From: a virus
IMG/VR virus record: IMGVR_UViG_3300043468_001551
Span: 1 to 23,327 of that record
DNA: 23,327 nt
Strand: one strand, 5' to 3'
In this document: positions 244 through 2,086 of the stretch, in pieces
Layout: each line of letters starts with the position of its first letter
How positions within the stretch are numbered: the stretch's first letter is position 1
The notes under the pieces: model-generated
The model's database searches: none
What the model saw: the letters and a program-made list of their open reading frames with translations, nothing else
What the model was told of the DNA's origin: nothing
Position numbers and translations under genes: made by a program

Positions 244-602
244 ATAAATTTTAAAAAATGGTGGAGATGACGGCATACGATAGCCGTGTCCAATGAACGT
301 TCATTCTACGATTCTTCACATGTTTGAGTATATTTAACATTTCAGCTACCTTACGGCAACGAAGACAAAAGGCTGTTTGGTTATACTAACCGATTTTTAT
401 GTCTGCCTATATGTGTGATTAAAGACCACATATTACCTATGACTATTTTTACCACACTAGTCACCTCATGCACGAACCTCTGTGATTCAAAACGGATTTA
501 GAGGATTACCGTTAGGCTCTATTTTTCTACCCTTTTAATTCCTGCTGAACTTATCCGAGTTTCTGTGAACTAAATCACATTCAAGGGTACAGGGCTTGTA
601 GC

Positions 603-704
603 TCAAGCGGCGAGAGCATAATCTTCAACATCGGCGAGGAACTCGTCGGCGTTGTTGATAATATACTCGGCTTCAGCCAAGAGGTCAGAAGTATTATCTT
701 CTGC
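603..704 (-). other. tmRNA tag-peptide reading frame (33 codons)
   Basis: The resume codon GCA lies at 704-702 and the stop TGA at 605-603. The encoded tag begins AEDNTSDL, is rich in Asp/Glu/Ala and ends ADVEDYALAA. The terminal LAA is the classic ClpX recognition element. Thirty-three encoded residues is at the long end for tmRNA tags, which are often 8-20. The segments LLAEAEY and FLADVEDYALAA resemble each other, suggesting internal duplication. The frame has no start codon or ribosome site, as expected for a trans-translated tag. Confidence 0.9.
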
Positions 705-715
705 GTTTAGTTTTT

Positions 716-749
716 AATCGATTTTTTAGGAGGCCATCGATTAACCTCC
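716..749 (-). other. tmRNA pseudoknot PK1
   Basis: On the minus strand GGAGG pairs with CCTCC (745-749 with 729-733), while AATCGAT in the loop pairs with ATCGATT beyond the stem (736-742 with 716-722). This is an H-type pseudoknot just before the resume codon, the position of PK1 in bacterial tmRNAs. Confidence 0.85.
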
Positions 750-795
750 ACATGCATCGTGGAATTAGAATCCAATGTCGAATCCTTTCATCCCC

Positions 796-980
796 GTAAA
801 TTTTACAAAGATCAATGAGACGTTTACCCGCGACGTCTCTGGCTAATCCGCGCCCCGAAAGGCTGTCGGCTACTTTACGGCTTCGCCATGATTAGTAAAA
901 ACATTCATTGGCTACCGGGCTTTTAACCCGCTGGACGAATAATTTTTATTATCTCTGCCTAATCGAGACTAATCTTATAT
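796..980 (-). ncRNA. GC-rich structured RNA or tmRNA leader, family unknown
   Basis: Between the RNA ligase stop and the tmRNA 5' end there is no coding frame, but the stretch is GC-rich against a strongly AT-rich background and full of complementary segments. GAGACGT/ACGTCTC form a perfect 7-bp stem (817-839). GATTAGT/ACTAATC can close about 85 nt (890-974). CTAATC occurs three times (843-848, 959-964, 969-974) against one GATTAG (890-895), so alternative pairings are possible. On the minus strand a UUCG-type hairpin and a GGC-GAA-GCC hairpin are also possible. The orientation is inferred from the candidate promoter at 982-1009, which would start transcription right at the first GATTAG. It may be a processed tmRNA leader or a separate RNA; I cannot match it to a known family. 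Confidence 0.55.
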
Positions 981-981
981 A

Positions 982-1009
982 AGAATATACACTTTTATTT
1001 TAAAGTCAA
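982..1009 (-). promoter_or_regulatory. candidate promoter for the tmRNA unit
   Basis: On the minus strand TTGACT (1009-1004), a 16-nt spacer and TATTCT (987-982) have the same spacing as the stronger promoter at 216-243. The -35 overlaps the last codons of the RNA ligase gene. The predicted start near 974-976 coincides with the first base of the GATTAG stem. The -10 matches consensus at only four of six positions, so this is tentative. Confidence 0.4.
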
Positions 1010-2016
1010 TCCTTATAATTTCTATTTATGAGTTTAAATCCCATAGGTCGGCGAGTACTAAATGAACGAATATAAGAACAAGGTCTTACAACAATACCTT
1101 CTCCCACTTCTCCACTATTATAGCGCTGTTTGTCGGCAAGTTCTTGTAGCTTTTGTAAGGGGTTTTCCCATATTTTTATGGTAGATGTTACATCTAATTT
1201 AGCAATTAAAGGAACCACGTCACATTGTAGTTCGTTTTTACAAAATTCGGCCATCATATCATATGTCATATATGCGCGGTCTACTTTTATTTGAAAAACA
1301 AAGATTTTAATATCAACTAACTTTAAACGATTTTTCTGTATTCCATTCCCACACAATTCGCCTTGAATTACGCCAGACCAATTTTGGGGTATATTTAACA
1401 TGCGGGCTGATCTCCAAAATGTAGAATTATTAGTGTCCTTCTTGGAAAGGTTTCTACTACATACTTGTTTAATTTCACCATTTTCTACTACAATTGTAAT
1501 ACTACTACCATCTAATTTTTGTGTTATAGTAATACATGGGTCTTGTTCTAGTACTTGTTTAACCATTTCTGGATCGTTTAAACCGTTATCCTCGTCAGTT
1601 TTAGAGGCAAGATGAGTGGGGAACTCACCCTCATTTTCTCCGGAAAGATTCGCGGGAAGTTCTTTAATATATTTTTGAATACCCAAATCTTCCGTAAGAT
1701 CCTTTCCAACCTCGAAGTCCTGCAAGAAAAGAGGAAATTCGCCAATAGGTACAACTAGACCAGAACTATATTCTCCACGAAGTTTTACATTTTTAATCCT
1801 GATTGGCTTGTCTGGTTTCTCTTTATCAGCCAAAAATTCTGACCACTCGCATTTAGGAACAATAGTATCAATGGTTATAAAAACTACTTTGTCACCCTCT
1901 TTGTGGACCCCTTTTTTGACTATTGTTTGCCAGCCAAGAACTTCGGCGATTTCTAAAGAATCAGCATTACTATGACTCCTAATGTTTTTTATGATTTCTA
2001 TAGATGCAAGTTTCAT
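1006..2016 (-). CDS. RNA ligase, DRB0094/Rnl5-like
   Basis: An ATP-dependent RNA end-joining enzyme that would seal 3'-OH/5'-phosphate breaks. Counting from the ATG at 2016 (336 residues), the adenylation motif I KLDGSS places the lysine nucleophile near residue 167. It is followed by a QGELCGNG block (motif IIIa region, ~218), EGIVVRP (motif IV, ~306) and GFKLIN (motif V, ~327). The N-terminal domain (MKLASIEII...GWQTIVKKG) matches the N-terminal layout of the TIGR02306/DRB0094 family, and the length is typical. A TTG at 2034 and an ATG at 2025 are alternative starts; I prefer 2016 because the family begins at this point. No clear ribosome site is seen. The stop is TGA. It sits directly upstream, on the same strand, of the structured RNA and tmRNA, which suggests a shared role in RNA damage or translation rescue. 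Confidence 0.9.
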   Translation of the reverse strand: MKLASIEIIKNIRSHSNADSLEIAEVLGWQTIVKKGVHKEGDKVVFITIDTIVPKCEWSEFLADKEKPDKPIRIKNVKLRGEYSSGLVVPIGEFPLFLQDFEVGKDLTEDLGIQKYIKELPANLSGENEGEFPTHLASKTDEDNGLNDPEMVKQVLEQDPCITITQKLDGSSITIVVENGEIKQVCSRNLSKKDTNNSTFWRSARMLNIPQNWSGVIQGELCGNGIQKNRLKLVDIKIFVFQIKVDRAYMTYDMMAEFCKNELQCDVVPLIAKLDVTSTIKIWENPLQKLQELADKQRYNSGEVGEGIVVRPCSYIRSFSTRRPMGFKLINRNYKD

Positions 2017-2086
2017 AACGTACATTTGTAACAATAAATGAAAAGATAATCAAGAAAAAAAGAAAAAAAAGTGTAATTAATTAATT

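Follow-up and report, generated by a model that had tools for sequence, protein, structure and literature searches.

Phage tmRNAs are usually viewed as borrowed host genes. As such they are already known (PMC4131195, PMC9004378, PMC11915505), examples being those of mycobacteriophages Bxz1 and Wildcat, Bacillus phage G and Streptomyces BE2 phages, and ssrA was reported in 402 of 18,146 phage genomes (PMC9004378). In a database of 97,179 tmRNAs the commonest tag length is 10 aa (PMC11915505). The methylophage Melnitz, an aquatic T4-like phage, has a two-piece, permuted tmRNA under a glutamine (glnA) riboswitch (PMC9004378), and mycobacteriophage DS6A encodes a TLD-only RNA, a tRNA-like domain related to tmRNA that has no tag frame.

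The window analyzed here, an IMG/VR virus record of 23,327 bases taken as a whole, contains on its minus strand a gene that shares with bacterial tmRNA (ssrA, RF00023) an acceptor with G3-U70, CCA, P2, PK1-PK4, the Ala resume codon, a tag ending in ALAA and covarying helices. It differs in being phage-encoded, in its 33-aa tag, in an 8-nt T-loop combined with a 3-nt spacer and in an 84-nt RNA module. The gene is phage-borne like the known phage ssrA genes, but its tag was found by tblastn in none of 50,697 phage records, nor in any of 72,556 plasmid records, and it belongs to another group of phages, presumably with another host. With Melnitz it has in common a structured RNA element, here putatively regulatory, and apparently the association with an aquatic T4-like phage; the window tmRNA is however one-piece, and its leader has no Rfam family. 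With DS6A it shares the phage-encoded tRNA-like domain, but the window tmRNA also has the tag and the pseudoknots, complete and conserved. To judge from sequence comparison, what is new here is a long tag that is specific to phages and under selection, a TLD restricted to phages, a leader RNA not described before and the inserted module. The features of the gene are the following.

259..795, minus strand: tmRNA gene of 537 nt, by RF00023 match and covariation over 21 relatives
789..795, minus strand: 5' strand of the acceptor stem, GGGGAUG, pairing with 263-269 (CAUCUCC) and including G3-U70
786..788, minus strand: 3-nt spacer from acceptor to GG, one nt below most relatives with a 7-nt T-loop
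716..749, minus strand: PK1 pseudoknot, GGAGG/CCUCC and AAUCGAU/AUCGAUU, with covariation in both stems
603..704, minus strand: tag reading frame, with resume codon GCA at 704-702, 33 aa AEDNTSDLLAEAEYIINNADEFLADVEDYALAA and stop codon TGA at 605-603
519..602, minus strand: 84-nt insert from tag stop to PK2, missing from all aligned relatives
about 528-593, minus strand: core module of the insert, CCUGUACCCUU...CUCGGAUAAGUUCAGCAGG...AAGGGUA, also present in 13 other aligned viral copies
477..513, minus strand: PK2 pseudoknot, AACGG/CCGUU and CCUCU/AGAGG, stem 1 covarying in 5 of 5 pairs
327..476, minus strand: PK3-PK4 region, with a covarying stem AGUAUA/UAUACU (387-382 with 332-327)
308..323, minus strand: 3' strand of P2, pairing with 750-760, by RF00023 match and alignment
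270..287, minus strand: T-arm with the 5-bp stem ACGGC/GCCGU and the 8-nt loop UAUCGUAU (275-282), by sequence and covariation
259..261, minus strand: encoded CCA, read from the sequence

The preliminary description had proposed a complete phage-borne tmRNA at 259-795, naming no strand, and these ends proved exact: the RF00023 match runs from 795 to 259 on the minus strand and covers model positions 1-374 completely (cmscan, 91.1 bits, E 1.4e-34, gathering threshold 47). It is the sole RNA family in the whole window. The acceptor with G3-U70, CCA, GGAUUCGAC, P2, PK1 and the YALAA-TGA frame all lie where they had been placed, and the 8-nt T-loop is genuine, with UAUCGUAU on a perfect 5-bp T-stem. 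The two computational checks that had been suggested gave divided results, as the Rfam covariance score was positive while ARAGORN made no call anywhere in the window. We assigned 51 pairs by hand on the window sequence, in the acceptor, the T-stem, P2, the two stems each of PK1 and PK2 and one PK4 stem, and over 21 aligned genes 94.3% of the cells show standard pairing. As evidenced by 125 double-changed cells, compared to 32 +/- 6 in shuffles and 10-25 in slid helices, these pairs covary; in the slid helices pairing drops to 36-59% of cells. P2, PK1, both PK2 stems and the PK4 stem are paired in 70-100% of cells with covariation among the 21 relatives, and G3-U70 is invariant in 21 of 21. 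The discriminator base in the window sequence is an A. With the resume codon GCA and a tag frame with a hydrophobic -AA degron end, a tmRNA criterion, likewise present, membership in tmRNA is firm. The permuted two-piece form (RF04321) was ruled out by the standard gene order in the window and in family members.

The neighbouring RNA ligase gene led to seven viral contigs that are about 80% identical there, two of them with the same tmRNA nearby, and viral contigs were later scanned with the 3' motif, the upstream element, the tag coding pattern and the T-loop. In one Rfam scan nine of ten relatives scored 86-126 bits as tmRNA, the tmRNA of the tenth (L106) lying outside the fetched stretch, and further relatives reached 104-153 bits. 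The exact motif GTAGCTGAAATGTTAAAT was discarded as a probe, as nearly all of its 82 matching contigs were coding coincidences. A BLASTN search of the locus against isolate phages gave no match.

At 537 nt the gene is longer than the full-length relatives scanned (411-472 nt). This unusual length had been recognized before, and an enlargement in the PK2-PK4 region had been suspected as its source; the additional nucleotides are instead those of the long tag and of the 84-nt insert that separates the tag stop from PK2. The core of the insert, CCUGUACCCUUG...CUCGGAUAAGUUCAGCAGG...AAAAGGGU, recurs at unrelated sites of other viral contigs, some of which resemble group I intron loops when read by eye, while some are intergenic phage DNA. 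Across 14 aligned copies of the module (the others being L155, L156, L158, L160, L163-L165, L168, L171, L173 and L176-L178) the pairs form in 97.5% of cells, with covariation in the inner hairpin. The module is probably pseudoknotted, a model unproven because the pseudoknot stems are nearly invariant, its support coming from recurrence and hairpin covariation. Folded alone the insert did no better than shuffles, and against Rfam it gave chance-level matches and no family. As its core recurs in viral contigs and its hairpin covaries, the window tmRNA is interrupted by a structured RNA module that appears to be mobile. Such an interruption could have inactivated the window copy within an otherwise functional family, and among the aligned relatives the insert is indeed found in this copy only. 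We nevertheless consider inactivation unlikely: all helices around it are intact, as are the tag, the T-arm, the acceptor and the CCA, the insert sits in a linker past the stop codon, and loops of other RNAs, including group I intron-like sequences, contain this module as well.

The most distinctive feature is the tag, whose extreme length and conservation are absent from the preliminary description. Among 39 distinct tags with a located resume codon, 15 have 33 aa, 6 have 34 and 18 have 35, and the tag of L097, AENYISDLLAEAEYIFNNASEFLGDVVDSVVDFFNGAEQEYALAA, extends to 45 aa. The tag pattern EAEYI-x-NNADE is found on 50 viral contigs, all uncultivated, and no contig matched the tag coding pattern among 84,980 bacterial and archaeal species genomes. 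Each of the tags listed has between 8 and 12 acidic residues and no more than one basic residue, and the C-terminal -AA degron end is retained in nearly all of them. Searches of Pfam and PDB with the tag yielded no convincing relative, the best PDB match (E 0.066) being a designed protein. AlphaFold predicts the isolated tag as two helices with a break near NN (mean pLDDT 81.5, pTM 0.35, from a 10-sequence alignment). Relatives with canonical 7-nt T-loops bear the same tag.

Purifying selection acts on the tag frame. In a set of 32 tmRNAs found independently of the tag (19 distinct segments), this frame has a pN/pS of 0.124, compared to 1.9 and 2.7 for the two other sense frames, and for codons outside the later search pattern the value is 0.225. 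Note that a value of 0.113 was set aside since the search pattern biases it, and the tag-independent value is used instead. Since helix P5 of tmRNAs often overlaps the tag frame, the tag might be conserved for the RNA structure of its nucleotides rather than for the peptide. This explanation is very improbable, as variation is concentrated at third codon positions, where codon diversity in the tag is highest (mean 0.30 vs 0.08 and 0.05), and as the tag frame is the only one among the sense frames with a low pN/pS. A second, unrelated long tag, AKAIANAVEAVKSVMTNVAEFFFAEEPCLMAA (about 32 aa, with an approximate resume codon), was seen in L180 and L207, in standard tmRNAs with an 8-nt T-loop.

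The window tmRNA lacks the canonical 7-nt T-loop (UUCRANU), which is typical of tmRNA without being a curated membership criterion; since the gene still matches the full tmRNA model, we treat it as a variant. The pattern GGAC-stem-UAUCRUAW-stem-CUCCA occurs on 43 viral contigs but in only 2 of 84,980 genomes, in a search limited to 8-nt loops of this sequence. All five T-stem pairs form in each of 33 examples checked, 31 of them newly fetched viral ones and two the genome matches. Both of the latter look like phage DNA: the contig of L153 bears a ROOL RNA and a phage-type peptidase, with a second, ordinary tmRNA elsewhere in the MAG, and the 7.2-kb contig L154 encodes a phage-type exonuclease along with 2OG oxygenases. 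The UAUCRUAW loop is found in standard as well as permuted tmRNA genes with quite different tags, and by its sequence distribution appears to define a phage-wide type of tRNA-like domain. The spacer measures 3 nt in 25 of 25 tmRNAs with an 8-nt loop, compared to 4-5 nt in 18 of 20 with a 7-nt loop, a coupling that we state without a probability since the sequences share kinship. From their co-occurrence the two lengths may be read as one coupled change of the tRNA elbow. ARAGORN calls the complete 7-nt-loop members L002, L034 and L070, but misses every 8-nt-loop member tested (the window, L003 and L091), and surveys based on this program therefore probably undercount phage tmRNAs. L153:3120-3359 itself, from a Bacilli MAG, is a very short tmRNA of about 240 nt that combines an 8-nt T-loop with what looks like a 4-aa tag (AMAA).

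The phage-restricted T-loop raises the question whether the RNA might be a decoy whose altered T-arm binds host SmpB or AlaRS and so blocks host trans-translation, an effect reported for the DS6A TLD-only RNA; a DS6A-like truncated tmRNA does strongly inhibit tmRNA (PMC4131195). A decoy would have no need of a tag, yet its conservation at the amino acid level is strong, PK1, PK2 and PK4 are maintained by covariation, and the same tag is attached to relatives with canonical 7-nt T-loops, so that we regard this role as quite improbable.

Upstream of the tmRNA the window contains two further features, on the same strand.

892..973, minus strand: leader RNA, a three-way junction in which GUCCA and GGUAGCCAAUGAA are invariant, found on 36 viral contigs
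1006..2034, minus strand: RNA ligase gene directly upstream of the tmRNA unit (PF09414, 5e-17; phrog_968, 1e-54)

The leader lies about 100 nt upstream of the window tmRNA (an example in a relative is L113:6880-6990). It is paired in 95% of cells, with 29 double changes compared to 7.9 in shuffles, and gave chance-level matches and no family in Rfam; the glnA and Downstream-peptide models returned nothing at E<=5 in the window or in L113. By the tag scan, 28 of 37 leader copies are followed on their own strand by a tmRNA, in most cases at a distance of about 150 nt, and L097, with its slightly different tag, raises this number to 29. For four other copies the locus ends within about 135 nt, and in the last four no tmRNA was detected by Rfam, three of these having tRNA genes downstream instead. 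This covarying element stands before the majority of the related tmRNAs and heads phage clusters of tmRNA and tRNA genes, and it is a candidate riboswitch or antitermination element. With the tmRNA of Melnitz under a glutamine riboswitch (PMC9004378), regulation of phage stable-RNA genes by the leader is a reasonable, but unproven, analogy. Between leader and tmRNA, a GC-rich, conserved-looking stretch with a GAGACGUCGCGGGUAAACGUCUC hairpin was noticed in the window (796-893, minus strand) and in L103, and parts of it are seen again in L106 and L109, there on the upstream side of the leader. The motif AGTGTATATW was dropped as a promoter as it showed no enrichment over shuffles. In a related phage contig, an abiF RNA (RF03085, 49.6 bits) is located at L095:4814-4850 on the minus strand, where it precedes the leader element by about 430 nt.

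Besides the RNA ligase, the window has genes for Hsp20 and a subtilase, for a tail-fibre-like protein, and for methyltransferases and sugar-modifying enzymes. Of 20 related records, 3 encode a T4-like gp23 capsid protein, and sister contigs extend to 217 kb, so the carriers appear linked to T4-like phages where gp23 can be checked. The gp23 of the sisters is only about 34% identical to that of cyanophages and Shine-Dalgarno sites are scarce (4 of 23 ORFs), which tentatively hints at a Bacteroidota host.

tmRNA genes are common integration sites, and the sequence is that of a bona fide tmRNA, as would be expected had a host gene been captured by accident, as a transduced or attachment-site relic without function in the phage. 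Against this, dozens of phage contigs have the gene, arranged alike and preceded by the same leader RNA, and the tag is under purifying selection and was found in no bacterial genome searched. These comparative data largely refute accidental capture, to which we give hardly any credence.

Beyond the observed structure, conservation, tag selection and phage restriction, we infer that the window tmRNA functions in trans-translation. In our estimation it is quite probably a working, phage-encoded, one-piece tmRNA with a phage-specific tag that relies on the SmpB and AlaRS of its host. During infection it would be transcribed from a unit headed by the leader RNA and charged with alanine by host AlaRS via G3-U70, and the charged RNA would be bound by host SmpB and EF-Tu, with the 8-nt T-loop compensated by a D-side spacer shorter by one nucleotide. 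It would then enter ribosomes stalled on broken mRNA and append the 33-aa acidic tag ending in YALAA, so that the ribosome is freed and the product is marked for proteolysis, presumably of the host ClpXP type. The preliminary description had suggested that such an RNA might replace host rescue or redirect the degradation of truncated proteins. The tag body SDLLAEAEYIFNNADEFL, a predicted helix-turn-helix, probably contacts an adaptor, a protease or another partner beyond the usual degron. Some points weigh against a working tmRNA: the insert absent in relatives could impair the window copy, the 8-nt loop differs from the canonical TpsiC loop and may bind SmpB or EF-Tu less well, and SmpB was not found in 20 related viral records. 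Neither were SspB or ClpS found in these records, many of which are fragments, and host factors are presumably used. A ClpP-family protease (PF00574, E about 1e-26) was observed in 3 of the 20 tmRNA-bearing records, those of L132, L143 and L137 (e.g. L151, L152).

Tag and T-arm are conserved across phages, and neither was found in the tmRNA genes of bacteria, which suggests that these phages evolved a tagging signal and a tRNA-like elbow of their own. This makes testable the need of a phage for its own ribosome rescue, the contribution of a long tag and the tolerance of SmpB and EF-Tu for an 8-nt T-loop. More tentatively, and with doubt prevailing, one may picture a phage-wide branch of tmRNA with its own TLD type, in which the conserved body of the phage-specific, 33-45-aa acidic tag of one T4-like lineage would do a job other than ClpXP targeting, such as adaptor recruitment or the steering of tagged proteins, and the undescribed leader RNA would control expression.

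The two ends of the tRNA-like domain may also be exchanged between phages. L102 and L127 match L113 almost exactly in the middle of the tmRNA, whereas the 5' and 3' TLD ends are of the other type, which suggests that the TLD halves were swapped jointly by recombination. L105 and L117 are likewise of mixed-type appearance.
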